Origin: Microbacteriaceae bacterium PS02343 | Lineage (GTDB): Bacteria; Actinomycetota; Actinomycetes; Actinomycetales; Microbacteriaceae | Direction: 5' to 3' | Assembly (NCBI GenBank): GCA_029959365.1 | Contig: JASCOA010000006.1 | Span: 1-64,000 of the forward strand | Length of the DNA: 64,000 nt | Shown here: positions 8,609 through 50,175 of the stretch, piece by piece | Numbering within the stretch: position 1 is the first letter of the stretch | Layout: the number at the start of each line of letters is the position of its first letter | The notes under the pieces: generated by a model | Seen by the model: only the letters and a program-made list of their open reading frames with translations | Told to the model about the DNA's origin: nothing | Database searches by the model: none | Made by a program: the position numbers and the translations under genes

Positions 8609-9556
8609 TCAGTACCGGGCGAGGATGTCGACGACGAAGACGATCGTGTCGCCGACCTCGATGCCGGCGTTGGCGTTGCCCGTCGCGTAACCGAGCTCGG
8701 ACGGGATCGAGATGATCACCTGCGAGCCGACCGTCTGGCCGGCGACGCCCTGCGTGAAGCCGGGGACGAGATCCGAGAGCGCGAAGTCGGCCGGGGCGCC
8801 GTTCTCCCAGCTGGAGTCGAAGACCTCGCCGGTGCGCCAGTTCACGCCGGTGTACTGCACGATGACGTCATCGCTCGCCTCGACGACCTCGCCGTCGCCC
8901 TTCTGGAGCACACCGACCGTGAGCTCGGCGGGCGGGTCGGTCTCGGGGATCGTGATCGTCGGGGCACCGTTCTCGGCGAGCTCGACGGTGGGCAGACCCG
9001 CGACGGGCTCCTGCGGCTCTCCCGAGGCGCGGTCGGGGTAGTCGGTGGGGGCGCTCGCCGCCTTCTCGACGATGTCGGCGAGGAGCACCACGTTCTCGGA
9101 GCCGTCGAGGCCGAGCTGCGTGTTGCCCTGGGCGCCGAAGAGATCGGCCGGGGGGATGATCGAGAGCACGCGCGAACCGACCGGCACGCCCTCGAAGCTG
9201 TCGACGATGCCCGCCGGGAAGGTGCTGTCGATGCCGAACTCCTCGGGGGCGGCGCCGTCCCACCCGTTGCTGAAGAGCTCCTCGCCCGTGGTGCCGTTGA
9301 CGAAGACGTAGGAGATCGTGAAGGCGTCGCCCTCGGCGAGCTCATCGCCGTCGCCCTCCTCGAGCACCGTCGTGGCGAACTCCTCGGCCTCGAGCGGCGT
9401 CTCGAAGGTCAGCTCCGGCTTGGCGCCGTCGTCGCCGGTGACCGTGATCTTGTCGAGCGGGTTCGCGCTCGAGATCGAGCACGCGGTGAGGGTCGCGGCG
9501 AGCAGCACGGTGGCGGGCAGGGCGAGGCGGCGGAGGCGCAAGAAGGAGTCCTTCAT
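8609..9556 (-). CDS. Lipoprotein with two FKBP-type peptidyl-prolyl isomerase domains
   Basis: A 315-residue exported lipoprotein. The signal peptide (residues 1-25, R-L-R-R then a hydrophobic run) ends in the lipobox L-T-A-C with Cys26. Two FKBP-like domains follow, about residues 70-170 and 210-315. The second is the more canonical, with [20 protein letters not shown] and a C-terminal hydrophobic strand ending V-F-V-V-D-I-L. The first has diverged and may have lost activity. It should act as a folding catalyst outside the membrane. I took ATG 9556 rather than an upstream in-frame codon because only this start gives a signal peptide. Confidence 0.88.
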
Positions 9557-9591
9557 CGTTCGGCGGGATCGTGCCCGAGCGGGCAGGGGCC

Positions 9592-9597
9592 AGTATG
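9592..9597 (-). promoter_or_regulatory. Possible -10 box upstream of the FKBP lipoprotein
   Basis: CATACT on the minus strand, about 35 nt before the ATG. The same hexamer precedes the tRNA-Glu and the diacylglycerol kinase in this window. Confidence 0.35.
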
Positions 9598-9698
9598 GCA
9601 GCAGCCTCTGGGCGGGGCGCCCAGGCGGGAGGCGGGCCACTCGACGCGGAGCTCCCCGACGAGGGGAGGGCGTCGTCCGCTGAGCGGGTGCGGAGCGC

Positions 9699-10179: not shown

Positions 10180-10185
10180 ACGCTA
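10180..10185 (-). promoter_or_regulatory. OsmC-gene -10 box (leaderless)
   Basis: TAGCGT on the minus strand, 7 nt before the ATG. It overlaps the last codons of the upstream ATPase gene. Confidence 0.45.
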
Positions 10186-13005
10186 CACGGCGCGCCGGCG
10201 CGGCGACCCGGTGCCGAGCCCGGTCTCGGCACGGGGTTCCGGCTCGGGCTCGGTGCGCACCGCGCGCAGGGTGCCGGCCTCGGCGACCCACGCCTCCCCC
10301 GGGGCGAGGGGCGGCGGCAGCTCCGCCGGGCGCAGCAGGGAGCGCACGTCGGCGAGCGAGCCGCCGGTGACGAGCACCGGACCGTGCTGCGCGAGCCGGG
10401 AGAAGAGGCCCCAGCGAGCGCTCCAGTCTTCGAGGTCGCCGACCAGCAACGCGGGCGCGTCGACGCCGAGGCTCGGGTCGCCCGCACCGTCGAGCACGGT
10501 GCTGCGCAGCCCCGGGTCCTCCGTGCTCCACCGCGCGAGGAGGCGGCGCGCATCCGGTCCCGCGACGGCTCGCAGCTCGCGTGGCGCGACCCGCTCGACG
10601 GGCGCCTCCGCATCCGGGCCCGGATCGTCGACGAGCGCGAACTGCAGCCGGTGACCGGCCGTGCTGCCGGCGCCCGGGCGCAGACCGGGGTCGTGCTGCT
10701 GGGGCGCGCCGCCGGCCAGCACGTGCTCCTGCCGATCGTCGATGCGCAGCAGCGCCCGGCTGCGGCTGAGCTGCGCCAGAGCGCCGAGGCCGGTGAGCCG
10801 CTGGGCTGTGACGAGCACGTGCAGGTCGCGGGCCGGCGCCTCGCGCAGCAGCCGGGCGAGGCGGTCGAGGGCCCGCAGACGGTGCTCTTCGCCGAGCGCG
10901 TCGAGCAGCACGTCGAGGTCGTCGAGCAGCAGTGCGCCCGGTGCGCGCAGCCGCTCGGCGGTCTCGATCGCCGCCCAGAGCGAGCGGGGTCCGCGTCCCG
11001 GCCGCAGCACCGGCAGCCCGGCCGCAGCGACGGCCGCATGCGCCGCGGCGACGGCGCCGGAGCGGCCGCTGCCCGCGCCGCCGACGACGAGCAGCGGGCT
11101 GCGGGCCGCGAGGTCGAGGGGTTCGCGGCGCTGCTCCTCGGGCAGGTCGACGAGCCCCAGCGGCAGCCCGTGCTCGGGCAGCTGCTCGGCGCGGAGACGC
11201 TCGGGAAGCGGCGGCAGCCACGGCCTGAAGGGCTGCGCCGAGCCGTGCCAGCGCTGCTGCACCGCCACCGCGTCCGACGGGACGGGCAGCGCCATCTGCG
11301 CCTCGAGCGTCTCGCCCTCGACGAGCAGGATCGCGCGACCGGGCAGCCCGGCGGGCAGCGATGCCGCGCCGGGTGCTCCGACGACCGCCGTGCTGTCGGC
11401 CTCGCTCATCACGCGCAGGGCGATGCGGAGCGCGGCGTTCGCGAGCACGCCGTCGCGCACCGCCCCGGCCGGCCGTTGCGTGCAGAGCACGAGGTGGATG
11501 CCGAGCGAGCGTCCGCGGGCTGCGAGGTCGGCGATCAGCGGATCGAGCTCGGGCAGCGCCTGCATCATCGCGGCGTACTCGTCGATGATCACCACGAGGC
11601 GGGCCAGTTCGCCGTCGGCCAGCTCCGCGATGGAGCGGGCGCGGTGCTCGGCGAGCAGCCGCTCGCGACGACGGGTCTCCGCTCGGAGGCTCTCCAGCGC
11701 CCGGCGAGCGGTGACGGCGTCGAGGTCGGTGATGACGCCCACGACGTGCGGCAGCCGCTCGAGCGGCGCGAAGGCGGCGCCGCCCTTGAAGTCCACGAGC
11801 AGCACGGCCAGCTCGTCCGGGGCACGGGTCGCGGCCATCGCCAGCACCCACGCCACGAGCAGCTCGCTCTTGCCGCTGCCCGTCGTGCCGGCGACGAGCG
11901 CGTGCGGACCGTGCCGCACCAGGTCGAGCGCGAGCGGACCTGCGGCGCTCGCCCCGACGACCGCGCTGAGCCCCTCCGGTCGGGGCTGCGCGAGCTCGGC
12001 GAGGGCGACGTGCTCCGGCACGGCGGCCGCGGCGGCCCCGGTGCCCAGACGCGTCGCCTCCTCGCGCAGCAGAGACGCGCCCGCGACGGCGGCGGCGAGG
12101 CTGCAGAGCTCGGGTTCGATCGAGCCGAGCGACGAGGCGTCGGGGTGCCGCAGCAGCCGGGGCCCCTCGCCGTCGATCACGAGCACGACCTCGCAGCCCG
12201 GCGGCAGGTCTCCCTCGTGGTCCCGCAGCGCCAGCCAGGCGGCCTCGCTGTGCTCCGTCCAGCTCAGCTGCTCCCGCCATCCGCCGGTCGCGGGCCCTTC
12301 GGCATCGGGCCGCGCGCGCAGCGGATGCGGTCCCCGGCCGAGCCACGCCCAGTGCTCCCCCGAGGGCGCCTCCACCGACATCGCGGCCGGTGGCAGCGTG
12401 CAGAGCCGGTGCAGGATCACCGCGCGGGCGACCGCTCGGGCGACCGTGGGCGAGGCCACGACCCCGATGCGACGCGCATCCGTGCCGATCGCCGCCCGCT
12501 CGAGGGTGCGGGCCCGGGCCTCGAGCCGCTCGCGGCGCTCGGTCTCGTCGGGGGTCTCGTCCTCGGCGGCAGTGCGCTCCATCCGCAGCGCGCTGCGGCG
12601 GGCACCGACTCCGAGGCGCACGTCGGTGCCGCCGGCCCAGCGGCGCCGCAGCCCCGATTCGCCGTGCAGCTCCGCGGTCAGCGCCGGCAGCGCCTCGTCG
12701 ATGATGCGACGCTCCTGATCGTGCCGTTCGGCGATCATCCGCTCGGCCGCCTCGCAGTCCTCGACGAAGCGCCTGCGCTCGCGCCGCAGCCGTCGCCGCG
12801 CGCCGATGCGACCGTCGGCGAGCGCACCGATCGCGACGATCGGTCCGAGCAGCGCGAAGAGCAGGGCGAACGGCGAGCGGGTGACCGCCCAGATGAGCAG
12901 GGCGCCGACCATCGGCGCGAGGCTCGCGATGAGCGGGAACGGCATCGGCTCGGGTCGGCTGGGGCCGCGCGGCCCGCGCAGCGGCTCGGTGATCGCATCC
13001 GTCAT
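10183..13005 (-). CDS. FtsK/SpoIIIE (EccC-like) ATPase
   Basis: A 940-residue membrane ATPase resembling EccC/EssC motors of type VII secretion. Two adjacent membrane helices lie at about residues 22-62, followed by a basic stalk. The first ATPase domain has an intact Walker A (G-T-T-G-S-G-K-S, about 375) and Walker B (V-V-I-I-D-E-Y, about 470). The second domain (from about 640) has a degenerate Walker A in which the lysine is Arg (G-G-A-G-S-G-R-S), with L-L-L-D-D-L-D as its Walker B, as is common in EccC. No EccB, EccD, EccE, mycosin or WXG100 gene is visible nearby. It lies behind an FHA protein, a pseudokinase and PP2C, so it may be controlled by phosphorylation. DNA translocation is a less likely alternative because there is no gamma domain. 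Confidence 0.82.
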   Translation of the reverse strand: MTDAITEPLRGPRGPSRPEPMPFPLIASLAPMVGALLIWAVTRSPFALLFALLGPIVAIGALADGRIGARRRLRRERRRFVEDCEAAERMIAERHDQERRIIDEALPALTAELHGESGLRRRWAGGTDVRLGVGARRSALRMERTAAEDETPDETERRERLEARARTLERAAIGTDARRIGVVASPTVARAVARAVILHRLCTLPPAAMSVEAPSGEHWAWLGRGPHPLRARPDAEGPATGGWREQLSWTEHSEAAWLALRDHEGDLPPGCEVVLVIDGEGPRLLRHPDASSLGSIEPELCSLAAAVAGASLLREEATRLGTGAAAAAVPEHVALAELAQPRPEGLSAVVGASAAGPLALDLVRHGPHALVAGTTGSGKSELLVAWVLAMAATRAPDELAVLLVDFKGGAAFAPLERLPHVVGVITDLDAVTARRALESLRAETRRRERLLAEHRARSIAELADGELARLVVIIDEYAAMMQALPELDPLIADLAARGRSLGIHLVLCTQRPAGAVRDGVLANAALRIALRVMSEADSTAVVGAPGAASLPAGLPGRAILLVEGETLEAQMALPVPSDAVAVQQRWHGSAQPFRPWLPPLPERLRAEQLPEHGLPLGLVDLPEEQRREPLDLAARSPLLVVGGAGSGRSGAVAAAHAAVAAAGLPVLRPGRGPRSLWAAIETAERLRAPGALLLDDLDVLLDALGEEHRLRALDRLARLLREAPARDLHVLVTAQRLTGLGALAQLSRSRALLRIDDRQEHVLAGGAPQQHDPGLRPGAGSTAGHRLQFALVDDPGPDAEAPVERVAPRELRAVAGPDARRLLARWSTEDPGLRSTVLDGAGDPSLGVDAPALLVGDLEDWSARWGLFSRLAQHGPVLVTGGSLADVRSLLRPAELPPPLAPGEAWVAEAGTLRAVRTEPEPEPRAETGLGTGSPRRRAV

Positions 13006-13109
13006 GCCCCCAGCGAACCCCGCCCCGCGCGCCGAACCCCCGCGAGCGCCCCACCCCGTGGACCGCGCACCCCTGTGGAGGAGCAGACCGCGGCCGCGCA
13101 CCCGCGAAC

Positions 13110-13331
13110 GCGCAGCGACCAGCCACGTGCTCGCCGGTCGATGCGCCGAGGGTGCCGACTCCCCGGCTGCCGAGACGGACCCGCGTCGTGCGCCTCAGGG
13201 GCGGCGGCGCACCCCCGGAAGCGCAGCGACCGGCCACTTGCTTGCCGGTCGAAGCGCCGAGGGCGCCGACTCTCCAGCTGCCGAGACGGACCCGCATCGT
13301 GCGCCGCAGGGGCGGCGGCGCACCAAAAGGC
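13110..13331. repeat. Two tandem copies of a 111-bp repeat, each with two hairpins
   Basis: The 326-base gap between the FHA gene and the ATPase gene (13006-13331) holds two direct copies of a 111-bp unit (13110-13220 and 13221-13331), with a short degenerate start of a third copy just before 13110. Each unit contains two inverted repeats. In the second unit both stems are perfect: CGACCGGC/GCCGGTCG and GTGCGCCGC/GCGGCGCAC. In the first unit each has a mismatch or is shorter. The array begins right behind the FHA stop codon. No convincing gene is seen in it on either strand. It could act as a terminator or processing element between the two genes. Confidence 0.75.
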
Positions 13332-13667
13332 TCAGTCCAGCAGGAAGAACTGCTCCCCGACCTCGATGCGGCTGCCGCGCGGCGCACGGTAGCGGCGTCC
13401 GGGCTCGCAGCGCTGCGGCGCCTCGCCGGGTGCCCAGAGCACCGTGCCGTTGCCGGAGTGGCGGTCGAGGATCCAGAACTCGCCATCGTCGACGCCGAAC
13501 TGGAGGTGGGTCTTCGAGACGGAGCGGCCCGCATCCGGCACGCGGATGAGGTGCGTCGCCGTCGTGCCGGGGTCGGCGGACGGGAGCCGGCCGAGCAGCC
13601 CCCCGCCGCGCACCGCGTAGCTCTCGCCCGTGCTGAACTGCAGCAGGAATCCATCGTTCGCGCTCAT
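13332..13667 (-). CDS. FHA-domain protein
   Basis: A 111-residue protein that is almost entirely one forkhead-associated domain, a phosphothreonine-peptide binder. The canonical residues are present: G-R near residue 26, S-V-S-K-T-H near 50 and H-S-G-N-G-T near 70. No membrane segment, so it is a small cytosolic adaptor. It lies 89 nt behind the pseudokinase and upstream of the EccC-like ATPase; EssC/YukB proteins of Firmicutes carry FHA domains fused to the motor, so this separate FHA could serve the ATPase in the same way (inference). A ribosome site AGGAGG lies 9 nt before the ATG. Confidence 0.88.
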   Translation of the reverse strand: MSANDGFLLQFSTGESYAVRGGGLLGRLPSADPGTTATHLIRVPDAGRSVSKTHLQFGVDDGEFWILDRHSGNGTVLWAPGEAPQRCEPGRRYRAPRGSRIEVGEQFFLLD

Positions 13668-13756: not shown

Positions 13757-14935
13757 TCAGCTCGACGACGCCGCGCAGTGCGGCTCGCTGGGCTCGCCCA
13801 ACCGGCCGTCGCGGTTGACGACGACCGAGAGGCACACGGTCTCGCCCTCGACCACCTCGACGACGTACCGCGGTGCGTCGAGCAGCTGGGGTACGCCCCC
13901 GTCGAGTCGCGCCTGGAACCGGTCGCCCTCCTCGAGCCCGGGGTCGTCCCAGCTGAACTCGATCGACCCGCCGTCGGTGACCGCCCGCACGCCCTCGACC
14001 GCCGGGATGCCGACGTCGGCCCCCCGGTCGAGCGCCGCGAAGGTCGAGGCGCCGACCGCGATCGCCGCCACTGCGGCGGCGAGCAGCGCCCAGGACGCGA
14101 GCCGCATGCCGCGCGGACCGCCGGGGTCCTCCGGGTGCAGCGCCGCGAGCACGCGGGCGTCGATCGGGCGGGTGCCGTCGAGGGCGACCTCGATCGGTGT
14201 GAGCGGATGCCCGAGCGCGGACTGCGCCTCGCGCAGTTCGAGGACCAGTTCGAGGGAGGAGCCGTGACGGCGGCCCGGGTCGTGCGACGTCGCCCGGTCG
14301 AGCACACGGCGCAGCGGCGCAGGGGCCGGCTCTCCCCCGAGCATGCTCCGCAGGGTCGCGCCGAGCCCGTGCACGTCGGCGGCCACGTCGAGCGCCCCTC
14401 CCGCGCGCACCTCGGGCGCGGTCCACACGTCCTCGGGCGACGGCACCGCGTCGAGGTCGAGCGCGGCGGCGAGACCCGACGCGGCGAGCACCACGGAGCC
14501 GTAGGGGGTCACGAGCAGGTGCGGTGGGCGCACGCCGCCGTGCAGCACGCCGGCGCGGTGCAGTGTCTCGAGCGCGCTGCCGATGCGCACGCCCAGTGCG
14601 AGCACCTCGGCGACCGTCATCACGCGGCCGTTCTCGGCGATGTTGCCGATGCAGCGCTCGGAGACGATGTAGGGCCGTCCATCGACGGCGACGGAGGCCT
14701 GCAGCACGGTGAGCACGGAGGGGTGCGCGCTCACGAGCGCCATCTGGTCGGCCGCGGCTCGGAAGCGCTCGCGCTCCTCGTCGCTGGTGAGCGGCTGCTG
14801 CAGCACGGTGAGCAGCACCGGTCGACGAGGCGAGAGCTGCTCGGCGCCGTAGACGTCGACGAGCTCGCCGGAGCCGTGGAACCGCGCGGTGCTGTAGCCC
14901 GGCAGCACCGGCGGTCCGAGCGGCGACGCGGGCAC
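13757..14935 (-). CDS. Membrane-anchored Ser/Thr pseudokinase with Cys-pair ectodomain
   Basis: A 392-residue PknB-like receptor: kinase fold (1-260), one membrane helix (about 279-302, L-A-S-W-A-L-L-A-A-A-V-A-A) and an extracellular domain of about 85 residues. The catalytic residues are gone: VAIK lysine is Thr (residue 43), HRD is H-G-G (132-134), DFG is A-S-G (152-154). It is therefore probably a pseudokinase scaffold or sensor rather than an enzyme. The ectodomain resembles that of the active kinase at 38.8-40.5 kb, including a terminal Cys pair. The GTG start follows the PP2C stop by 6 nt. Confidence 0.85.
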   Translation of the reverse strand: MPASPLGPPVLPGYSTARFHGSGELVDVYGAEQLSPRRPVLLTVLQQPLTSDEERERFRAAADQMALVSAHPSVLTVLQASVAVDGRPYIVSERCIGNIAENGRVMTVAEVLALGVRIGSALETLHRAGVLHGGVRPPHLLVTPYGSVVLAASGLAAALDLDAVPSPEDVWTAPEVRAGGALDVAADVHGLGATLRSMLGGEPAPAPLRRVLDRATSHDPGRRHGSSLELVLELREAQSALGHPLTPIEVALDGTRPIDARVLAALHPEDPGGPRGMRLASWALLAAAVAAIAVGASTFAALDRGADVGIPAVEGVRAVTDGGSIEFSWDDPGLEEGDRFQARLDGGVPQLLDAPRYVVEVVEGETVCLSVVVNRDGRLGEPSEPHCAASSS

Positions 14936-14941
14936 GGTCGA

Positions 14942-15718
14942 TCAGGCCTCGTGCAGATCGAGCACGATGAGCGTGACGTTGTCGCGCCCGCCCGCGTCGA
15001 GCGCCGCGTCGAGCAGCGCCTGCGCGGTGGCCTCGGCGGAGAAGCCGGCGGTGGCGTGCATCCGGATCCAGTCGTCGCGCAGCTCCTTGGTGAGCCCGTC
15101 GGAGCAGATGAGCAAGCGGATGCCGGCGCGCAGCGGGATGAGCCAGACGTCGGGCTGCGGGTCGTCCTCGAAGCCGATCGCGCGGGTGATGACGTTGCTG
15201 TCCGGGTGGTGCTCGGCCTCGTCCTCGGTGATCATGCCGGCGTCCACCATCGCCTGCACGACCGAGTGATCGACCGTCACCCGCGCGAAGTCGTCGCCCT
15301 CGGCGGCGTAGACACGGGAGTCGCCGAGGTTGAAGACCGCGAGGTAGGGGTTGCCGTCCTCGGCGACGAGGGCCGCACCGGTGATGGTGGTGCCGCTGCC
15401 GCGGCCGCCGACCACCTCGCCCTCGCGGATGTCGAGCGTCGCCTGCACGAGCGCGCGGTTGAGGTCCTCGATCGCGGTGAGCCCGTCGGAGGCGAGCTCG
15501 CCGAGGCGGCGCACCACCGCGGCGCTCGCGACGTCGCCGGAGTCGTGGCCGCCCATCCCATCCGCCACCGCGAAGACCGGAGCGAGCGCGAGCAGGCTGT
15601 CCTCGTTGAGCGAGCGCCGGTGACCGACGTCGGTCAGCGCGTGCCAGCTGACGGCGAGCGCGGGGCCGCCGTCCACGGGTACCGGTGCGGTGCCGGAGAT
15701 CTCGCCGAGGCGCAGCAT
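14942..15718 (-). CDS. PP2C-family Ser/Thr protein phosphatase
   Basis: A 258-residue soluble PP2C/PPM phosphatase that removes phosphate from Ser/Thr using two Mn or Mg ions. Motifs in order: R-S-L-N-E-D-S, V-A-D-G-M-G-G-H, N-L-G-D-S-R-V-Y, C-S-D-G-L-T-K-E-L and G-R-D-N-V-T-L-I. All metal-binding aspartates appear intact. It sits 2 nt behind the aldo/keto reductase and 6 nt before the pseudokinase. Because its neighbouring kinase is catalytically dead, its substrates must be phosphorylated by another kinase, for example the one in module B. Confidence 0.93.
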   Translation of the reverse strand: MLRLGEISGTAPVPVDGGPALAVSWHALTDVGHRRSLNEDSLLALAPVFAVADGMGGHDSGDVASAAVVRRLGELASDGLTAIEDLNRALVQATLDIREGEVVGGRGSGTTITGAALVAEDGNPYLAVFNLGDSRVYAAEGDDFARVTVDHSVVQAMVDAGMITEDEAEHHPDSNVITRAIGFEDDPQPDVWLIPLRAGIRLLICSDGLTKELRDDWIRMHATAGFSAEATAQALLDAALDAGGRDNVTLIVLDLHEA

Positions 15719-15720
15719 GC

Positions 15721-16695
15721 TCAGGCCTCCCCGCCCGTGAAGATCGCGTCGATCTCGCGCAGGTCCGACTCGTCCGGGCTCCAGGCCGTCGCCGCGGCGG
15801 CGTTCTGCGCCACCTGCTCGGGTCGGGTGGCGCCGGCGATCACGCTCGCGAGGCCGGGCTGCGCGAGCAGCCAGCCGAAGGTGGCCTCGAGCACCGTGAC
15901 GCCGCGCGCATCGGCGAAGGCGCGGTAGCGGTCGAGCGCCTCCCAGGGCGCGGATTCGAGCAGCTGCGGCTTGGAGTGCGTGATGCGGCCGTCGCTCGGT
16001 GCCGCGTCGCTGCGGTACTTGCCCGTGAGCAGGCCGTTGGCGAGCGGGAAGTAGGGCAGGAAGCCGAGCCCGTAGGCGCGCACGGCCGGCAGCACCTCGG
16101 CCTCGGCGCCGCGCGCGAGCAGGCTGTACTCGTTCTGCGCGCTGACGAAGGGCACGTGACCGCCGATGCGGGCCGTGAACTCGGCCTCCGCGATCTGCCA
16201 GCCGGCCAGGTTCGAGTGGCCGAGGTAGCGCACCTTGCCCTCGCGCACGAGGTCGCTCAGCACGTCGAGGGTCTCCTCGATCGGGGTGAGCGGATCGGGG
16301 GCGTGCAGCTGGTAGAGGTCGATCCAGTCGGTGCGCAGCCGGCGCAGCGACGACTCGACCGCGAGCCGCACGTAGCGGCGCGAGCCGCGGGCGCCCCAGT
16401 CGGGGCCGTTGGCGCCCTCCATGTCCATGCCGAACTTGGTGGCCAGCACGAAGCGGTCGCGGCGGCCCTCGAGGGCTCGACCGAGCACCTCCTCGCTGCG
16501 CCCGCGCTGCGCCCCGTAGATGTCGGCTCCGTCGATGAGGTTCACACCCGCGTCGAGTGCCGCACCGATGACGGCGTCGGCTCCCTCCTGGGTCTCGGTG
16601 GCGGTGCCGGCGCGGCCGAAGTTGTTGCCACCGAGCCCCACCGCCGAGACGATGAGTCCGGAGCGGCCGAGCGGTCGGAGGAACGGGGCTGGCAT
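15721..16695 (-). CDS. Aldo/keto reductase
   Basis: A 324-residue NADPH-dependent aldo/keto reductase of the (beta/alpha)8 fold. Seen are the catalytic Asp/Tyr (D-G-A-D-I-Y-G), the lysine in V-L-A-T-K-F-G, D-L-Y-Q-L-H and the C-terminal cofactor segment S-V-I-A-G-A-T-R-P-E-Q. It resembles the Kv-beta/YajO-type reductases; the substrate is unknown. The ATG follows a TACGAT box by 6 nt, so it begins a leaderless transcript that probably continues into the PP2C-pseudokinase-FHA genes. The link to signalling may be only transcriptional. Confidence 0.92.
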   Translation of the reverse strand: MPAPFLRPLGRSGLIVSAVGLGGNNFGRAGTATETQEGADAVIGAALDAGVNLIDGADIYGAQRGRSEEVLGRALEGRRDRFVLATKFGMDMEGANGPDWGARGSRRYVRLAVESSLRRLRTDWIDLYQLHAPDPLTPIEETLDVLSDLVREGKVRYLGHSNLAGWQIAEAEFTARIGGHVPFVSAQNEYSLLARGAEAEVLPAVRAYGLGFLPYFPLANGLLTGKYRSDAAPSDGRITHSKPQLLESAPWEALDRYRAFADARGVTVLEATFGWLLAQPGLASVIAGATRPEQVAQNAAAATAWSPDESDLREIDAIFTGGEA

Positions 16696-25848: not shown

Positions 25849-26406
25849 TCAGCCGCGCTCGACGCGCAGCGGGCACTCGCCCAGCTCGATGCGCGCATCC
25901 GCCGGCACCTCGGCCGGCTGGCCGGACGGCGCCTCGGCGACCCGGCCGTCGGCGCGGACGAGCCAGGTGCCGTTCGTCGAGCCGAGGTCCTGCACGAGCA
26001 GGCGGCCGCCGCGTACGAGCAGGAGGGCGTGGGTCTTGGAGACGGAGTGGCGCGCATCCGCCACCGGCACGACGAGGGCGTCGGGATGCTCCGATCGCGG
26101 GGCGGGATCACGGCCGAGCAGCAGCGGGACCGTGATCGGGATGCGACGGCCGTCCTCCAGCACGAGGACGGGGGTCGGCGCGTCGGGCTCGGTCTCGGTC
26201 TCGGTCTCGGCGAGCACGCCGCCGAAGACCGCCCCCGGAGCGGGCGTCGCGAAGGAGCGGCCGCGCAGCGGCGCCGTGCCGGTCTGCAGCGGCACCGGCT
26301 GCGGTGCTGGGGACGGTGCCGGTGCTACTTGCGGCGGCGGCGCAGGGAGCGGCGGGAGCAGTCCCGGCGGCGGCGTGATCCGGTAGGGGCCCTGCGGCTC
26401 GGTCAT
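25849..26406 (-). CDS. FHA-domain protein with Pro-rich N-terminus
   Basis: A 185-residue cytosolic protein: a Pro/Ala-rich tail (1-75, with an acidic Glu-Thr repeat, E-T-E-T-E-T-E), then an FHA domain with all key residues (L-G-R near 97, S-V-S-K-T-H near 121, L-G-S-T-N-G-T near 143). It should bind phosphothreonine motifs. Last gene of module B, 53 nt after another FHA gene, with a GGAGAGGAG ribosome site. A TACGAT box at 26444-26449 suggests it may also have its own promoter. Confidence 0.87.
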   Translation of the reverse strand: MTEPQGPYRITPPPGLLPPLPAPPPQVAPAPSPAPQPVPLQTGTAPLRGRSFATPAPGAVFGGVLAETETETEPDAPTPVLVLEDGRRIPITVPLLLGRDPAPRSEHPDALVVPVADARHSVSKTHALLLVRGGRLLVQDLGSTNGTWLVRADGRVAEAPSGQPAEVPADARIELGECPLRVERG

Positions 26407-38111: not shown

Positions 38112-38828
38112 TCAGTCGGCCGAGGCGTCGTCGGCGGCGCGGTCGAGCAGCGGCAGGTCGTCGGCGCTGATCATCCTGGTGCCGACCGCGTACTCGACGA
38201 GGCGGGCCCGGCGGTTGGTCGCCAGCTTGCCCTTGCCGCCGCGGAGCCCGGCGACGCCGATCTTGTCGAGCTTGTCGCAGACGTTGTCGAGCTTGCGGTT
38301 GAAGGTGGTCATGCTCCAGCCGAGCCGTTCGGCGGCCTGCGCGGAGGTGGGGATCTCGCCGCGCCCCGGCAGATCCTGCTGCAGCACGTGCTCGGCGAGC
38401 GAGACGATCAGCATGCGCTGCGTCGTCGTGAGGGTGACCGGCATGATCGTGGTCTGGCCGATCTCGTCGGCCCGCAGCTGCGAGGTCGTGAAGACGTCGC
38501 TCTCGGCGTGCACGGTGAGGTCGTAGGTGGTCGAACCGGCGCTGAACATGATGTGCATGCGCTCGAAGACGATCGGCAGCCGCGCGCCGGGAGCCAGCCA
38601 CGCCTGGACCTGGCCCGAGGCGTCGGTGACGGTCGCCGAGAGCAGGTTGCCCACGTTGCTCAGCCACCAGAGCCCGGCCTCGCTGTGGATGCGCAGGAAC
38701 CGGCGGTGCAGGTAGGGGTTGTCGTCGACGACCAGGTCGGCCTCGCGGCCGATGAAGAACTCGGTGCCCTCGTCGATCGTGAACCACTCGCCGACGAACT
38801 CCAGCTTGAGACCGCTCACGGTGCGCAT
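38112..38828 (-). CDS. FHA-HTH fusion protein, candidate transcription regulator
   Basis: A 238-residue protein: an N-terminal FHA-like domain (1-110) and a C-terminal helical region (125-210) that reads as a winged or plain helix-turn-helix (T-S-A-Q-A-A-E-R-L-G-W-S-M-T-T-F-N-R-K-L). The FHA part is degenerate: the G-R is kept, but the S-x-x-H and N-G positions read P-Y-L-H-R-R and N-V-G-N. It overlaps the kinase gene by 13 nt, so it is made with the kinase and may carry its signal to DNA, as EmbR does in mycobacteria (analogy). It is the only DNA-binding candidate in module B. Confidence 0.83.
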   Translation of the reverse strand: MRTVSGLKLEFVGEWFTIDEGTEFFIGREADLVVDDNPYLHRRFLRIHSEAGLWWLSNVGNLLSATVTDASGQVQAWLAPGARLPIVFERMHIMFSAGSTTYDLTVHAESDVFTTSQLRADEIGQTTIMPVTLTTTQRMLIVSLAEHVLQQDLPGRGEIPTSAQAAERLGWSMTTFNRKLDNVCDKLDKIGVAGLRGGKGKLATNRRARLVEYAVGTRMISADDLPLLDRAADDASAD

Positions 38829-40453
38829 ACCTCCAGTGGATTCGCGCTCGCGGCGCCGTCGCGGATGACCCAGACCTTCACGCAGACCGTCGCGGCGCCC
38901 TCGACACCCTCGACGGTGATCGTCGCGGACTCGCTCGAGCCCTCGATGAGGCGCGCACCGCCCGCGATGGTCTCGGGCACGTCGACGCGCTGCCAGCGGA
39001 AGCGGTCGGCCTCCTCGAACTCGGGGTTGAGCACCTCGAAGGTGGCAGTGGAGGCGCCGGGGGCGTAGGACGCGGCGGCGAGCTCGGGGGTCGGGGTGAG
39101 CGGGCCGACCGCGCTCTGATCGTCGGGGTCCACCGCTGCGGCGCTCGAGGGCTCCGGCTCCGGCGCGCCGCCGTTGAGCAGCACGCCCACCGTCACGGCC
39201 CCGCCGATGAGCACCACGGCCGCGCCCGCGATGAGCGTCGCGACCAGCCCGCGCTTCGAGCGCGACGCTTCCGGAGCGGACTGCTGCCGGGTCGCGGCAC
39301 CCGGGCGGATGACGGTGCTCTCGTCGACGGGCGCCTGCTGCGGTGCGGGCTGCTGCGGCGCGACCTGCTTCACCGAGCGGACGACGGTGGGCTGCTCGCC
39401 CTGCGGGGACAGGATCGGCGGCTCCTGGACCGGGGGTGCGACGGGCTGCGCATCGATCGTCGCGACCGAGCGCACGCGCGTCTCGTCCTCGCCGCCGACG
39501 GGGCCGCGCTCCGGCTCCGGCACGAACAGGTTGGGCACGTCGATGGCGGTCGGCGCGTAGCCGAGCTCGAGCTCGACGCGCTGCAGCGCCCGGGCGAAGT
39601 CCACGGCGGTGTCGAAGCGCTGAGCGCGGTCGACCGACATCGCCTTCTGCAGCACCGCCGTGAGCGAGCGCGGCAGGTCGGTGCGCTCGAACGGGGTGAT
39701 CTGCCCGCGCTCGATGCGCCCGACGAGGTCGAGCGTGCCGTTCGATCGGCCGCGTACCTCGTAGGGCGTGCGGCCGGCGAGCAGCGTGTGGACGGTCGCG
39801 GCGAGCGAGAAGACGTCGCTGCGCACATCCGGTCGCGGATCGTCCTCGAACATCTCGGACGGCGACCACGGAATCGACATGCCGATCGACTGGTTGCTGC
39901 CGGTGCCCGTCGCGGTCGCCTCGAGCCCTCCCCGGCCGAGCGTCGTCGTGTGCACGGGCAGCTCCTCGAGCTGCGAGGCGATGCCGAAGTCGGTGAGGGC
40001 GGGCCATCCGAAGCTGTTCGTGAGCACGTTGGCGGGCTTGATGTCGCGGTGCAGGATGCCGGCCTGGTGCGCGGTCGCGACGGCGCTGGAGACGCGGATC
40101 GCGACCCGCAGCGCGTCCACGACCGAGAATGGCCGCTGCTTGTACTGCTCGCCGAGGTTCGGCCCCGAGCAGTACTCCATGATCAGGTACGGGCGCCCGT
40201 CCGGCGCGACGTCGGCGTGGTAGATCGAGACGATGTACGGATGAGCGCTGAGCTGCGCCATGAGGTTCGCCTCGGCGACGAAGGCCGCCCGGTTCGCCTC
40301 GGTGAGCTCCTCGGTCAGCAGCACCTTGACGGCGACCTGGCGCCGCGGCAGCTGCTGCTCGTAGAGGAAGACGTCGGCGAAGCCGCCGGAGCCCAGCAGT
40401 CGGACGACCTCGAAGCCCGGGATGACGGGCGGCGTCGACGGCGCGCGCCGCAT
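38816..40453 (-). CDS. PknB-type receptor Ser/Thr protein kinase
   Basis: A 545-residue receptor kinase. All catalytic elements are intact: glycine loop L-G-S-G-G-F-A-D-V, Lys43 in V-A-V-K-V, H-R-D (135-137), D-F-G (155-157). A juxtamembrane linker (about 300-395) holds Thr motifs such as P-T-V-V-R and S-T-V-I-R. One membrane helix lies near 405-425, then an ectodomain of about 100 residues ending with two cysteines (V-C-V-K-V and E-V-C-A-P). It probably phosphorylates the FHA-linked proteins of this operon. ATG shares one base with the preceding FHA stop. PASTA domains are absent. Confidence 0.94.
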   Translation of the reverse strand: MRRAPSTPPVIPGFEVVRLLGSGGFADVFLYEQQLPRRQVAVKVLLTEELTEANRAAFVAEANLMAQLSAHPYIVSIYHADVAPDGRPYLIMEYCSGPNLGEQYKQRPFSVVDALRVAIRVSSAVATAHQAGILHRDIKPANVLTNSFGWPALTDFGIASQLEELPVHTTTLGRGGLEATATGTGSNQSIGMSIPWSPSEMFEDDPRPDVRSDVFSLAATVHTLLAGRTPYEVRGRSNGTLDLVGRIERGQITPFERTDLPRSLTAVLQKAMSVDRAQRFDTAVDFARALQRVELELGYAPTAIDVPNLFVPEPERGPVGGEDETRVRSVATIDAQPVAPPVQEPPILSPQGEQPTVVRSVKQVAPQQPAPQQAPVDESTVIRPGAATRQQSAPEASRSKRGLVATLIAGAAVVLIGGAVTVGVLLNGGAPEPEPSSAAAVDPDDQSAVGPLTPTPELAAASYAPGASTATFEVLNPEFEEADRFRWQRVDVPETIAGGARLIEGSSESATITVEGVEGAATVCVKVWVIRDGAASANPLEVCAP

Positions 40454-41796
40454 CAGTCCTCGCTCACGGTGAAGACGACCCCGCCGCCGAGGTCGATCAC
40501 CGTGCCGACGATGACCGCGGTCGGTTCGCCCTGACGCAGCTTCTGCGGGCTCTTGCCCGGCAGGATCACGTGGGTGCCGTTGCGCGAGTGCAGGTCGGTG
40601 ACGACGACCGTGCCGCCCTCGACGGCGAACTGCACGTGGTTGCGCGAGATGTCCTGGCCGAGCGAGGTGACCGTGACGAGCCGCGGGATCCGGCCGCCGG
40701 GCACCTGGCTGACGCTGGGCGCGCGGCCGACGAGAACCGGCTGATCGAGCGCCTCGACGACGCCGTCGAAGCGCAGCAGGTGCAGGGAGGGCGCCGGCAC
40801 CGCGGCTGGCGCGGACGCGCCGTGCTCTCGGCGCCGCGCGCGCAGCTCGGCGAGGTCCTCGGCCATGACGGTGTGCCCGTCGTGATCGCCCTCGACGGGC
40901 ACGCCGAGGCGGTCGGAGGCGACCGGGTCGGCACCGGAGCGGGACGGGCTCACGATGGTCGCGTCGAGCAGATCGTCGTGCTCGTCGTCGTGCTCGTGAT
41001 CGCCCGCGAGTCCCTCCGCTGCTGCGGGCAGGATCGTCTGCTCCGGCAGGTAGGTCTGCTCGATCAGCGCCTGGTCGGTGGGCTGGCGGCGGGGCATGAC
41101 GGACGTGCGCTCGTCGATCGAGTCGTCGACGACCTCGTCCTCGGACGGCTCGACGGGCGTCTGCACCGCGGGGATCGGCGCGGGCGCCGGGATGATCAGC
41201 GGCTCGGCCGAGGGCACCGGAGCAGCGGGCTCCGCAGGCGGCGCGGCGGGAACGGGCTCGGGCGCGATCAGGGCGGGAGCGATCGGCGCCGACTCGACCG
41301 GTCCCGGCTGCGAGCCGATCGGCGCGGCAGGGGCGGGCTGCGGGACCGGAGCGGACGCGGTCGCGTCGAGCGCCAGCGCGTCGGTGGCGACGATGCCCGA
41401 GACGATCGGCAGCAGCCCGTCCGCGGAGACGGCGGCGGCGTCCGCGCGACGCAGCTGCACGGCGGAGGCGGACGCATCCGCATCCTCCCGCCACGTGGCG
41501 ACTCCGGCGCCGCTGCGCTCGACGCTGCCGCCCGCGGAGGAGACGGTCGCAGCGACGGGGCCGCGCAGGATCGTGCGCAGGCCGCCCTGCGCATCCGATT
41601 CGGCGTAGGCGAAGGAGGGCACCGCGGAGAGCCCGCCCGCGGTGAGGCGGTCGAGCAGGGCGTCCGCGCTCTCGAGCAGCGCCGGCCAGAGGTCGAGCGC
41701 GCGCTCGGCGGAGGCCTCGACGAGCAGCGCGCGGCCGTCGTGCACGAGGGCGAACCAGCCGCCCCCGTCGGTGTGCCGGTAGTGCGTCGCGGTCAT
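40453..41796 (-). CDS. FHA-domain protein with Thr-motif linker
   Basis: A 447-residue cytosolic protein in three parts: an N-terminal folded domain (1-130) of unknown type, a Pro/Ala/acidic linker (130-330) and a C-terminal FHA domain (G-R near 355, D-I-S-R-N-H near 383, L-H-S-R-N-G-T near 405). The linker contains spaced threonines followed by hydrophobic residues (R-T-S-V-M, Q-T-Y-L-P, Q-T-I-L-P, A-T-I-V-S, H-T-V-M-A) that suit phosphorylation by the neighbouring kinase and reading by FHA domains. It lies 1 nt behind PP2C and overlaps the kinase. Confidence 0.86.
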   Translation of the reverse strand: MTATHYRHTDGGGWFALVHDGRALLVEASAERALDLWPALLESADALLDRLTAGGLSAVPSFAYAESDAQGGLRTILRGPVAATVSSAGGSVERSGAGVATWREDADASASAVQLRRADAAAVSADGLLPIVSGIVATDALALDATASAPVPQPAPAAPIGSQPGPVESAPIAPALIAPEPVPAAPPAEPAAPVPSAEPLIIPAPAPIPAVQTPVEPSEDEVVDDSIDERTSVMPRRQPTDQALIEQTYLPEQTILPAAAEGLAGDHEHDDEHDDLLDATIVSPSRSGADPVASDRLGVPVEGDHDGHTVMAEDLAELRARRREHGASAPAAVPAPSLHLLRFDGVVEALDQPVLVGRAPSVSQVPGGRIPRLVTVTSLGQDISRNHVQFAVEGGTVVVTDLHSRNGTHVILPGKSPQKLRQGEPTAVIVGTVIDLGGGVVFTVSED

Positions 41797-46128: not shown

Positions 46129-47046
46129 CTACAGCGTCGACGACGTCGCCGGCGCCGCGTCGACCCAGCCGACCGGGACGCGCAGATCGTTGACCGTGCC
46201 GGGGCTGGCGGTGCCGGCGAGACCCACCACGGCGAGGGCGTCGACGGGCACGACCGCGGCCACGGCGCCGACCCATCGGGCGGTGTCCTCGGGCTTGCGG
46301 CCCGCGTCGACGACGAGCCAGACCTGGTCGGCGGGCACCCCGCGCAGCGCCTCGAGCCGCACCGGATCGACCGGCAGGGAGGCGGGCAGGCCGGCCGCGA
46401 CGATGCCGCCGCGAGCGTGCTGCACGCCGTCGGCGCGGAAGGCGCTGCAGGTGCGGCGGTCGTCGACGCGCGGCAGCCCCGCCTCCTCGATCGCTCCGGA
46501 GACGGCGATCCGGCCGCCGGTGGTCACGGCCATCGCTCGGGCGACCGCGAGCGCGACCGCACCGAGGCCCACGACGAGCACGACGTCGCCCGGCGCCGAG
46601 CGCACCGTCGGCACCGGCGACCGCGGCGGCTCGGGCGCGGTGACGGCCACGATCTCGTCGAGCAGCCTGGCGAAGTCCGGGCGCTCGGTGGAGACGCGGC
46701 TGGGCTGCGGGGCGGGCTCGCGCGCGGCGTCGTCGCGCAGGCCCGCGTGCATCCGCTCCTCGGCCCGCTCCGCCTGGTCGAGCAGCGCGTCGAGGCCGAC
46801 CGGTGCGCCGGCGGTCGGCGACGCCGCCGGTGAGGGCGGCACCGGCATCGCGACGGCGGGACCGCCCGGCTCGTCGGCGATCTCCACCTCGGCCTCGAAG
46901 TAGGACTTCGCGAAGAGACCGCGGAGTCCCCCGACGGTCACCCGCTCGGCGCTGAGGATGCGGGCGCGCGGCCCGTACTCCCGCTCGACGCGCGCGGTGA
47001 GCTCGACGAGCGAGGGGGCGTCAAGCCGCAATCGTCTCGGGGACAC
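46129..47046 (-). CDS. FlhF-like protein lacking the P-loop
   Basis: A 305-residue protein in the place where flhF follows flhA. The N-terminus (F-x-A-K-S-Y-F-E-A-E-V near residue 45; R-x-L-G-x-x-A-x-I-L-S type start) resembles the FlhF N domain. The middle (85-140) is low complexity. The SRP-GTPase-like part (150-300) has V-V-L-V-V-G-L-G-A-V-A where FlhF has G-P-T-G-V-G-K-T-T, so Walker A is lost; a V-V-D-A-G strand remains. Probably a non-GTPase relative. The GTG start overlaps the flhA end by 26 nt. Confidence 0.65.
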   Translation of the reverse strand: MSPRRLRLDAPSLVELTARVEREYGPRARILSAERVTVGGLRGLFAKSYFEAEVEIADEPGGPAVAMPVPPSPAASPTAGAPVGLDALLDQAERAEERMHAGLRDDAAREPAPQPSRVSTERPDFARLLDEIVAVTAPEPPRSPVPTVRSAPGDVVLVVGLGAVALAVARAMAVTTGGRIAVSGAIEEAGLPRVDDRRTCSAFRADGVQHARGGIVAAGLPASLPVDPVRLEALRGVPADQVWLVVDAGRKPEDTARWVGAVAAVVPVDALAVVGLAGTASPGTVNDLRVPVGWVDAAPATSSTL

Positions 47047-49081
47047 GCACCACCCCGACGGTCTCGATCTGACTGCCGGCGCTCGTGGCCTCCTGGTACG
47101 ACAGCACGGCGACGCCGTCGGCCTGGGTGCCCGCGAGGCGCCGCACGGCGGGGCGCAGGGCGGGCGCGCAGACGAGCACGGGCGCGATGCCGCGGGCGTC
47201 GACCGAGCGGATGGTGTCGGCCAGCGCCGCGATGACCTGCTCGATGCGGCTCGGGTCGAGCACGATCTGGGTGCCCTGCTCGCTCGGCCGCAGCCCCTCG
47301 AGCATGGACTGCTCGAGCGCGGGGTCGATCATGACGACGCGCAGCACGCCGTCGTCGAGGTGCTTGGCGACGAGCGCCGGTCCGAGAGCCGAGCGCGCGG
47401 CCTCGACGAGCGCCTCCGGATCGTTCGACTGCTTCGCCCGCAGCGAGAGCGCCTCGTAGATGCGCGGCAGGTCGTTGATGGCCACCCGCTCGGCGAGCAG
47501 CCCCTGCAGCACGCGCTGCACCTCGGCCAGCGAGAGCAGGTTGGGCACCAGCTCGTCGACGGCGGACGGGTTGACCTGCTTGACGCCCTCGGTGAGCACG
47601 CGCACGTCCTCGCGGCTGAGCAGGCGCGCGGCGTTCTGGGTGATGACCGTCGACAGGTGCGTGACGATGACCGAGACGCGGTCGATGACGGTCGCGCCGG
47701 CCATCTCGGCGGCGTGCCGCATCTCGGCGGGCACCCACTTGCCGGCGAGCTGGAAGACCGGCTCGATCGTGGCCTGACCGGGCACGTCGTCCAGGCCGTC
47801 GCCCAGCGCGAGCAGTCGGCCCGAGGGCGCCGTGCCGCGGCCGACCTCGACGCCGGCGACGCGGATCGCGTAGGTGGAGCGCGGCAGCTCGATGCTGTCG
47901 CGGGTGCGCACGGCGGGCACGACGACGCCGAGCTCGCCGGCGATCGTCCGCCGCAGCGCCTTGACCCGGCCGAGCAGGTCGTCGCTCTGACCGCTGACGA
48001 GGTCGACGAGATCGGGGGCGAGCTGGATCTCCAGCGCGTGGACCCGCATCTGCTCGATGAGGTCCTCGGTGCTGTCGCCCGTGGGAGCGGGCGGCATGGC
48101 CTCGGCGAGGCGCTGCGCCGCCGCGGCCTTCCTCTCGGCGGACGCGATGCGGCGGCTGGCGATGATGAGCCCGGCGCCGACGGCGATGAACGGGATCGGC
48201 GGCATGCCCGGGATGAGCGCCATGACGAGCGCCGCGCAGCCCGCGATCATGAGCGCCATCTGCGACTGCGCGAGCTGCTTCGAGGCCTGCGAGCTCATCT
48301 CCTGGTCGGAGGTGGAGCGCGTGACGATCATGCCCGTCGCGACGGCCATCAGCAGCGCCGGGATCTGGGTGACCAGGCCGTCGCCGATGGTCAGCAGCGT
48401 GTAGGTCTCGACGGCCTCGCCGATCTCCATGCCGCGCTGCAGCATGCCGAGGGCGATGCCGCCCACGATGTTGATGATGATGATGATGATGCCGGCGATC
48501 GCGTCGCCCTTGACGAACTTCGACGCACCGTCCATCGCACCGTAGAAGTCGGCCTCGGCCGCCACCTCCGCGCGGCGCTCCTTGGCCTGCTGCTCGCTGA
48601 TCATGCCGGCGTTCAGCTCGGCGTCGATCGCCATCTGCTTGCCGGGCATCGCGTCGAGGGTGAAGCGCGCGCCGACCTCGGCGACGCGCTCGGCGCCCTT
48701 CGTGACGACCACGAACTGGATGACGATGAGGATGAGGAAGACGACCGCCCCGATCACGATCGATCCGCCGACCGCGACATGCCCGAACGCCTCGATGACC
48801 TGGCCCGCGTAGCCCTCCCCCAGCACCAGGCGGGTGGAGGCGACGTTGAGCCCGAGCCGGAACAGCGTCGCCACGAGCAGCAGCGACGGGAACACCGAGA
48901 AGTCGAGCGGGCGCTTGGCGAACATCGTCGTGAGCAGGATGACGAGCGCGAAGAGGATGTTCACGATGATGAGCACGTCGAGCAGCGGTGCGGGCACCGG
49001 CACGACGAGCAGCAGGATGATGCCGACCACGCCGATCGGCACGGCGAGCGCCCCGAGCAGCAGCCTCATTCGAGCGGTCAT
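47021..49081 (-). CDS. flhA: Flagellar type III export protein FlhA
   Basis: A 686-residue FlhA, the export-gate subunit. Seven or eight N-terminal membrane helices (to about 310) include the FHIPEP-type cytoplasmic loop (G-A-R-F-T-L-D-A-M-P-G-K-Q-M-A-I-D-A-E-L). The C-terminal cytoplasmic domain (about 350-686) docks export chaperones and substrates. ATGA overlap with flhB. Confidence 0.96.
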   Translation of the reverse strand: MTARMRLLLGALAVPIGVVGIILLLVVPVPAPLLDVLIIVNILFALVILLTTMFAKRPLDFSVFPSLLLVATLFRLGLNVASTRLVLGEGYAGQVIEAFGHVAVGGSIVIGAVVFLILIVIQFVVVTKGAERVAEVGARFTLDAMPGKQMAIDAELNAGMISEQQAKERRAEVAAEADFYGAMDGASKFVKGDAIAGIIIIIINIVGGIALGMLQRGMEIGEAVETYTLLTIGDGLVTQIPALLMAVATGMIVTRSTSDQEMSSQASKQLAQSQMALMIAGCAALVMALIPGMPPIPFIAVGAGLIIASRRIASAERKAAAAQRLAEAMPPAPTGDSTEDLIEQMRVHALEIQLAPDLVDLVSGQSDDLLGRVKALRRTIAGELGVVVPAVRTRDSIELPRSTYAIRVAGVEVGRGTAPSGRLLALGDGLDDVPGQATIEPVFQLAGKWVPAEMRHAAEMAGATVIDRVSVIVTHLSTVITQNAARLLSREDVRVLTEGVKQVNPSAVDELVPNLLSLAEVQRVLQGLLAERVAINDLPRIYEALSLRAKQSNDPEALVEAARSALGPALVAKHLDDGVLRVVMIDPALEQSMLEGLRPSEQGTQIVLDPSRIEQVIAALADTIRSVDARGIAPVLVCAPALRPAVRRLAGTQADGVAVLSYQEATSAGSQIETVGVVRVPETIAA

Positions 49082-50175
49082 GATTCTCCTCCGGTGAGTG
49101 CGGGGGCCATGGACTGGATGCCGGAGGCGCCGCCGCGGCGCTGCAGCGCCATGACGAAGGCCAGCAGCTTGGCGACGGCGGTGTAGAGCTCGGCCGGGAT
49201 CTCGTGGCCGATCTCGCAGGACGCGTGCAGCGCGCGGGCCAGGCCGACCTCGCGCACCATCGGCACGCCCGATTCATCCGCTTTCTCGCGGATGCGCCGG
49301 GCGATCTCGTCCACGCCCTTGGCGACGACGCGCGGCGCGCTCCTGCCGGCCTCGTACTTGAGGGCGACGGCGTAGTGGGTGGGGTTGACGACGACCACGT
49401 CCGCATCCGCCACCGAGGCGATCATGCGGTTGCGGCTCAAGGCCAGCTGACGGGCGCGGCGCTGCGACTTGATCAGCGGGTCGCCCTCGCTGTTCTTCGA
49501 CTCGTCGCGCACCTCCTTCTTGGTCATGCGCGTGTGCTTGCGGTTGCGGCGGGCGATGACGAGCATGTCGAACACCGCGAGCGCGAGCCCGGCGAGCACG
49601 CCGGCCTGCAGCAGCGAGGCGACGCCGCCGGTGGCCACGTTCATGACCGCGGAGAGCGGCAGGGAGGCGCTGGAGGCGAGCGTCGGCATGAGCCCGGTGA
49701 CGACGATGGCGAGCACGCCGCCGACGACCGCGGTCTTCAGCAGGGCCTTCACGCCCTCCCAGAGCGCCTGGCCGCCGAAGGTGCGCTTCATGCCGTTCAG
49801 CAGGTTGAACTGGTCGAAGCGCCCCTTCATCTGCTTGAGGTGGATGCCGCCCTGCACGAAGGCCGCGGCGACCGCGATGACCGCCACCACCGCGAGGATC
49901 GGTGCGATGAGCCCGAGCACGGTGCCGAGCCCCTCGCCGAGCATCTCGACGGCCACCTGCGGGTCGGGCTGGGCGATGATGCGCGGGATGTTCAGCAGCT
50001 GGTCCGTGCCGCCGTCGGCGGCGTTCTGCACGACCGCCGGCAGCATCGCGGCGACCGCGCCGATGCCGACCCAGGCCGAGAGGTCCTGGCTGCGCGAGAG
50101 CTTGCCGTCGCGGCGCACCTCGCGCATCCGCTTGTCGGTGGCCTGCTCGGTCCTCTCCTCGGAGGTGTCGGCCAT
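49078..50175 (-). CDS. flhB: Flagellar export switch protein FlhB
   Basis: A 365-residue FlhB: four membrane helices in the first 215 residues, then a cytoplasmic domain with the self-cleaving N-P-T-H motif (near residue 263). It switches export from hook to filament proteins together with FliK, which is also encoded here. It overlaps fliR by one base and flhA by four. Confidence 0.96.
   Translation of the reverse strand: MADTSEERTEQATDKRMREVRRDGKLSRSQDLSAWVGIGAVAAMLPAVVQNAADGGTDQLLNIPRIIAQPDPQVAVEMLGEGLGTVLGLIAPILAVVAVIAVAAAFVQGGIHLKQMKGRFDQFNLLNGMKRTFGGQALWEGVKALLKTAVVGGVLAIVVTGLMPTLASSASLPLSAVMNVATGGVASLLQAGVLAGLALAVFDMLVIARRNRKHTRMTKKEVRDESKNSEGDPLIKSQRRARQLALSRNRMIASVADADVVVVNPTHYAVALKYEAGRSAPRVVAKGVDEIARRIREKADESGVPMVREVGLARALHASCEIGHEIPAELYTAVAKLLAFVMALQRRGGASGIQSMAPALTGGES

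Follow-up and report, generated by a model that had tools for sequence, protein, structure and literature searches.

Described counterparts of the locus analysed here include parts of type VII secretion systems (T7SSs) and of actinobacterial peptidoglycan synthesis. EssB/YukC is described as a pseudokinase of the membrane with no ATP binding (PMC9600267, PMC12599244), and its pseudokinase domain is reported to bind the FHA region of EssC in an apparently phosphorylation-independent manner (PMC9600267). MviN is reported to be phosphorylated by PknB and to recruit FhaA (PMC12599244). Membrane kinases, together with PPM phosphatases and FHA parts, have also been described in variants of the T7SS (PMC11217815).

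The window, by which we mean the whole stretch of DNA analysed (64,000 nucleotides, GC content 69-77% in 2-kb steps), comes from a 3.4 Mb genome of an Arenivirga-like species of the Microbacteriaceae. The features on which the analysis relies are the following, with positions given as those of the window.

10183..13005, minus strand: FtsK/SpoIIIE ATPase, 940 aa, EccC/EssC-related, with two transmembrane (TM) helices and one canonical Walker A motif

13090..13324, no strand: tandem repeat between the FHA gene and FtsK (111-bp unit, 2.1 copies, 89% matches)

13332..13664, minus strand: FHA domain protein, 110 aa, with the phosphothreonine-site residues GR, SKTH and NGT kept

13757..14935, minus strand: receptor pseudokinase, 392 aa, GTG start at 14935 and stop at 13757; degenerate kinase domain at ~residues 13-240, juxtamembrane segment at 241-275, TM helix at ~284-302 and an FN3-like C-terminal beta domain at ~310-392, in which two Cys are shared with A. 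flava

14942..15718, minus strand: PP2C/Stp1-type phosphatase, 258 aa, in which the Asp motifs for metal binding are retained

15721..16695, minus strand: aldo-keto reductase, a neighbour of the locus in several genera and used as a site marker

38816..40414, minus strand: intact receptor kinase of module B, used as a control (frame-open part; the true start lies slightly upstream)

The tandem repeat takes up the larger part of the intergenic space that separates FHA from FtsK in the window, and the corresponding gap in A. flava looks much shorter. Elsewhere in the window, a flagellar export cluster with FlhA (FHIPEP) and FlhB genes is found at 47021-50175.

The product of 13757..14935 has the domain order of PknB-like receptors, namely an N-terminal kinase domain, a single TM helix and a C-terminal domain, and its best matches among solved structures are PknA and PknB. 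The Pfam Pkinase model matches residues 18-203 (6.4e-9, 36 bits vs a cut-off of 31.7), and the A. flava copy stays under the same cut-off (25.1 vs 31.7 bits). The initial annotation of this DNA had reported that the positions of Lys43, HRD-Asp and DFG-Asp are occupied by Thr, Gly and Ala. An alignment of the protein with nine orthologous kinases bears this out, and the open reading frame, its coordinates and its strand were also correct. Thus, the lysine of VAVKV in the orthologues is Thr43 in VLLTV, the HRD-Asp is Gly134 and the catalytic-loop Asn is His139 (HRDIKPSN vs HGGVRPPH in the pseudokinase), and ASG replaces DFG such that its Asp is Ala152. The list was nevertheless incomplete, given that the lesions extend beyond the three named positions to this Asn and to several other elements. 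The alphaC Glu is replaced by Ala61 (AEANLM in the orthologues, AAADQM here), the Gly loop is altered (GSGGFADVF in the orthologues, GSGELVDVY here), the activation loop is shortened, and approximately 30 C-lobe residues around helix G are missing.

The protein therefore combines kinase homology with replacement of all three key residues (Lys, HRD-Asp and DFG-Asp), as expected of bacterial Ser/Thr receptor pseudokinases in general, and judging from these residues it appears to have lost both nucleotide binding and catalysis. An assembly error is excluded because the A. flava protein, which is full length and 67% identical to that of the window, carries every lesion. Some bacterial pseudokinases are reported to have gained other activities (PMC12599244), such that a non-canonical enzyme or a ligand sensor in a kinase fold could be envisaged here as well, but with all nucleotide- and metal-binding positions lost we regard this as very improbable.

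An AlphaFold2 model computed from a three-row alignment has a mean pLDDT of only 50.8 over the pseudokinase, and its kinase fold is for this reason assigned from sequence. The model is trusted in the ectodomain only, where beta strands are predicted for residues 311-392 (block pLDDT 63-87). Our literature search returned no paper on this protein, the mentions of Arenivirga all appearing incidental, and nothing in which Microbacteriaceae are linked to type VII secretion, a kinase and FHA together. A search of plasmids returned distant kinases only (46 records, 0 above 60% identity). Models of defence systems gave general kinase or FtsK matches only and were not considered further.

The gene order at the locus indicates its ancestry. 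Microbacteriaceae carry a cluster of ~17 kb, here termed cluster A, with genes for FHA, PP2C, kinase, Big_9/FN3, MoxR, DUF58, transglutaminase, FHA and an FtsK/EccC-like ATPase. Intact cluster A forms a single run in 9 of the first 16 loci fetched. Arenivirga keeps both ends of this run, and in both of its species only the PP2C, pseudokinase, FHA and FtsK genes are found at the locus, with the inner block absent. Sequence identities agree with this placement. The kinase domain of the pseudokinase has a median identity of 0.44 to cluster A (47 rows) and of 0.38 to cluster B, the second such cluster of the family (12 rows), and its lowest identity to A (0.403) is above its highest to B (0.398). 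For the ectodomain, the medians are 0.40 to A (the 42 of 47 rows with enough coverage) and 0.27 to B (12 rows). Trees were computed from 61 rows (quick tree) and from a 22-row subset of those 61 (careful tree); in the latter, the pseudokinase sits on a long branch and its joining cluster B is not rejected (AU p 0.424). Given that the tree does not decide, orthology to cluster A rests on gene order and identity, and on these grounds the protein is best read as a degenerate orthologue of the cluster-A receptor kinase.

A survey of the motif in orthologues, as proposed in the initial annotation, places the lesions in both Arenivirga species and finds every motif present in all 47 cluster-A kinases read (45 genera). 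Every motif is likewise present in 11 of 11 other cluster-B kinases and in the window's own module B kinase. Part of the 47 loci were chosen by kinase match, which biases this count towards intact kinases. A further set is provided by the 35 of 36 regions that were picked by FtsK position alone. Among these 35 loci, 24 have a kinase, each of them part of the 47 and intact (24/24), 8 have PP2C and FtsK genes without a kinase, and 3 are uninformative (L111 is cut by a contig end, and L124 and L126 are without the other genes). In the family, 2 of 398 genomes, both of them Arenivirga, encode a full-length relative of the pseudokinase (E 1e-50 or better), and in the order 1 of 386 does so, which is the window's own. 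Thus, among the genomes searched, the pseudokinase is confined to Arenivirga, a genus of soil bacteria, where it occurs in two species only. Because the relatives are intact, and the nearest genus by LeuC (g7, 87-89%) has an intact cluster, the simplest placement of the loss of catalysis is in the stem of Arenivirga.

The absence of a working kinase next to the phosphatase gene has parallels elsewhere. Of all loci fetched, 13, from 11 genera, combine PP2C and FtsK genes, and in some cases FHA, with the absence of a kinase, the space between PP2C and the next gene being too small for one. The window genome is therefore not exceptional in having a PP2C that lacks a kinase nearby. These kinase-less loci are L078-L082, L100, L106-L108, L118, L119, L123 and L128, and the FHA protein is of the zinc-ribbon type in several of them.

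Loci of this kind fit an alternative in which the Arenivirga gene is a relic, that is, a kinase on its way to being lost as in the genera now reduced to PP2C, FHA and FtsK. The several deletions, the elevated dN/dS and the sub-threshold Pfam score of the A. flava copy fit such an origin also. However, the 392-aa frames are intact in two species whose proteins are 67% identical, and the pattern of substitution also speaks against decay. By a simple count between the window species and A. flava, dN/dS is 0.44 for the gene, with values of 0.41 for the kinase domain, 0.56 for the juxtamembrane segment, 0.27 for the TM helix and 0.48 for the ectodomain. Neutral simulations under two base compositions never reach 0.44 (0/1000 under each), and both reading frames are open in 190/1000 and 5/1000 of them. 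Because the gene's value lies under that of every neutral simulation, we conclude that it is under purifying selection, and we consider a relic to be improbable.

The pseudokinase is constrained, although less than most of its neighbours. In the same comparison, dN/dS is 0.10 for the FHA gene, the most constrained of the module, and 0.30 for FtsK, with 0.22 for the module B kinase, 0.17 for MoxR and 0.41 to 0.77 for some FHA genes of module B. A value above that of most neighbours also fits relaxed constraint. By dN/dS, the module B FHA proteins encoded at 25849-26406 (0.77) and 40453-41796 (0.50) evolve faster than the pseudokinase. The PP2C value is left out since it is inflated by a one-base frameshift that splits this gene beside the pseudokinase in the A. 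flava record (~8920-9695 of its locus). This frameshift is a probable sequence error, given that the protein downstream of it is still ~96% identical to that of the window. Within the pseudokinase, the N-lobe is best conserved (75%), whereas among the cytoplasmic parts conservation is lowest in the juxtamembrane segment (51% identity).

Module B (~25.8-42.8 kb) is the window's copy of the second cluster, which is family-wide, and full-length relatives of its kinase are found at ~53-61% in many genera, often beside cluster A. The initial annotation had called this kinase a sister of the pseudokinase that keeps all motifs. Its motifs are indeed intact, but it belongs to a separate family-wide cluster, and it is the cluster-A kinases that the pseudokinase resembles more closely. 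The same annotation had proposed that a dead receptor with a live phosphatase acts as a decoy or scaffold that depends on the other kinase. A scaffold fits the evidence, whereas nothing that we found shows the protein to be a decoy or to need the module B kinase.

Receptor kinases of bacteria form dimers via their N-lobes, and no other part of the pseudokinase is as well conserved as this one, which would suit a decoy or hetero-dimer partner, as would the intact state of the module B kinase and the distant likeness of the two ectodomains. However, median ectodomain identity to cluster B is only 27%, and kinases of cluster B are widely found beside intact cluster A kinases, so nothing ties the pseudokinase and module B as a pair. 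A role of the pseudokinase that requires this kinase is possible, yet we judge such a partnership to be quite improbable. Module B also encodes, at 38112-38813, a 233-aa protein without a Pfam match, which by eye starts like an FHA domain, contains a TT-I motif and may end in a helix-turn-helix, and is perhaps a phosphorylation-linked regulator.

The immediate neighbours offer a more local set of partners. The PP2C gene directly precedes that of the pseudokinase in the direction of reading, with 6 nt from its stop to the pseudokinase GTG. The PP2C itself was initially described as probably active, in agreement with the retention of the metal-binding aspartates in the motifs NED, DGMGG, SDG and RDN; its score with the Stp1 model is 187.6 bits, below the cut-off of 230. 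While the pairing with this phosphatase holds, the initial annotation omitted the likelier local partners, which are the adjacent FHA protein and the FtsK/EccC-like ATPase. Phosphothreonine-site residues are kept in 50 of 50 FHA matches at such loci, that of A. flava included. A pattern search finds a zinc ribbon in frame upstream in 40 of these 50, and it is absent from both Arenivirga proteins. The ATPase is nearest by sequence to EccC (4nh0, 4.7e-55), YukB/EssC and EccC5, and it matches the NCBIfam EssC and EccC models below their cut-offs.

Because the FHA pocket is kept, the main rival to our preferred explanation is an adaptor that works in the manner of MviN. An active kinase, from module B or elsewhere, would phosphorylate the tail of the pseudokinase, the FHA protein would bind the resulting phosphothreonine, and the PP2C would reverse the modification. 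The strong constraint on the FHA gene is consistent with such a route, for which MviN itself provides the precedent, and the genome has seven other kinase matches above the Pfam cut-off. Against this route, a juxtamembrane Thr motif that a regular expression, which undercounts it, recognizes in 29 of 47 cluster-A kinases is absent in both pseudokinases, and the juxtamembrane segment is the one in which cytoplasmic conservation is lowest. We hold this route to be unlikely, although more probable than the alternatives considered above.

The explanation we favour, with modest confidence, is that the protein is a cluster-A orthologue that lost its kinase activity, at a locus that lost its inner block, and was kept as a membrane scaffold for FHA and FtsK, with the PP2C serving other kinases. 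On the Arenivirga stem, the Big_9/FN3-MoxR-DUF58-transglutaminase block would have left the locus and the cluster-A kinase would have lost nucleotide binding and catalysis, an order of events that we infer. The pseudokinase would have been retained as a scaffold that is anchored in the membrane and has no catalytic role, with the inactive kinase fold docking the neighbouring FHA protein and the FtsK/EccC-like ATPase at the inner membrane face. Its FN3-like ectodomain may still sense or anchor outside the cell, and the PP2C would act on phosphothreonines made by the cell's other kinases. These partners are proposed by analogy, because EssB/YukC shows a similar decay and binds the FHA region of EssC.

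With regard to type VII secretion, an EccC/EssC-like ATPase is encoded at the locus, and no WXG100 gene was found at the module or on the window's contig, the four matches in the genome all being on other contigs. Across 66 loci of other genera, WXG100 searches gave one match (E 0.056), and three of the four queries (L149, L150 and L151) look like misread frames, which makes this search a weak one. A search for YukD gave no match, whereas the control matched in B. subtilis. A separate and more typical T7SS-like locus is present on contig C217 (237-5884), with WXG100, a zinc-ribbon FHA and an FtsK of 1500 aa that has an FHA-like N-terminal match. The idea that the FtsK at the pseudokinase locus is the genome's only EccC-like ATPase is ruled out by this second one.

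The pseudokinase locus resembles several described systems in part. Like TscD, TsdD and TseD of T7SSc, T7SSd and T7SSe, it places a membrane kinase homologue beside an EccC-like ATPase, with the PPM phosphatase and FHA that occur in some of those systems. However, the active site of TscD is described as conserved and the clusters of these kinases as including a WXG100 gene (PMC11217815), and neither applies here. The PFNA cluster of bifidobacteria (Pkb2, FN3, AAA-ATPase, DUF58 and TGM, with PrpC and FHA in some) has the gene set of clusters A and B, but a word search of the main text of its review (PMC8430577) finds neither a pseudokinase nor FtsK, and the core block of PFNA is missing at the pseudokinase locus. 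The domain of MviN/MurJ (ActPs3) is likewise actinobacterial and shares the change of Lys to Thr (VALT there, VLLT here), a deletion in the activation loop and an FHA partner. In contrast to the Arenivirga protein, which has an N-terminal receptor domain, one TM helix and an FN3-like ectodomain, and whose orthologues keep their catalytic residues, the domain of MviN sits in a multi-pass protein of peptidoglycan synthesis.

EssB/YukC presents the most extensive parallel. Both proteins have an N-terminal cytoplasmic pseudokinase, one TM helix and an extracellular domain, both show degradation of the three motifs and the Gly loop together with a short activation loop, and both have FHA and FtsK/EssC-type parts adjoining. 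The differences are nevertheless substantial. Our protein matches general kinase families and lacks a match to the EssB/YukC Pfam family, EssB is absent from the best 60 solved matches shown for it, and its ectodomain is predicted to be beta whereas that of EssB is reported as helical (PMC3694306). Moreover, its FHA partner is a separate protein with the phosphothreonine pocket kept, unlike in EssC, and its sister proteins are intact kinases. Given the missing family match and the beta ectodomain, the pseudokinase does not belong to the EssB lineage.

A broader proposal, which we offer as a speculation that is rather unlikely to be correct, is that Arenivirga re-invented the EssB solution by converting, within a single family, an active receptor kinase into a pseudokinase that holds an FHA-ATPase assembly without phosphorylation. 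In that case, the cluster-A orthologues that remain intact would represent the ancestral condition in living bacteria. The locus also carries a warning, since a protein annotated as a kinase, here with a Pfam score over the cut-off, may be catalytically dead although its neighbouring phosphatase works. A pseudokinase of a single genus can here be compared with dozens of orthologues that are intact and share its gene context, which makes losses, retained parts and partners directly comparable and offers a testable case for the origin of EssB-type scaffolds.
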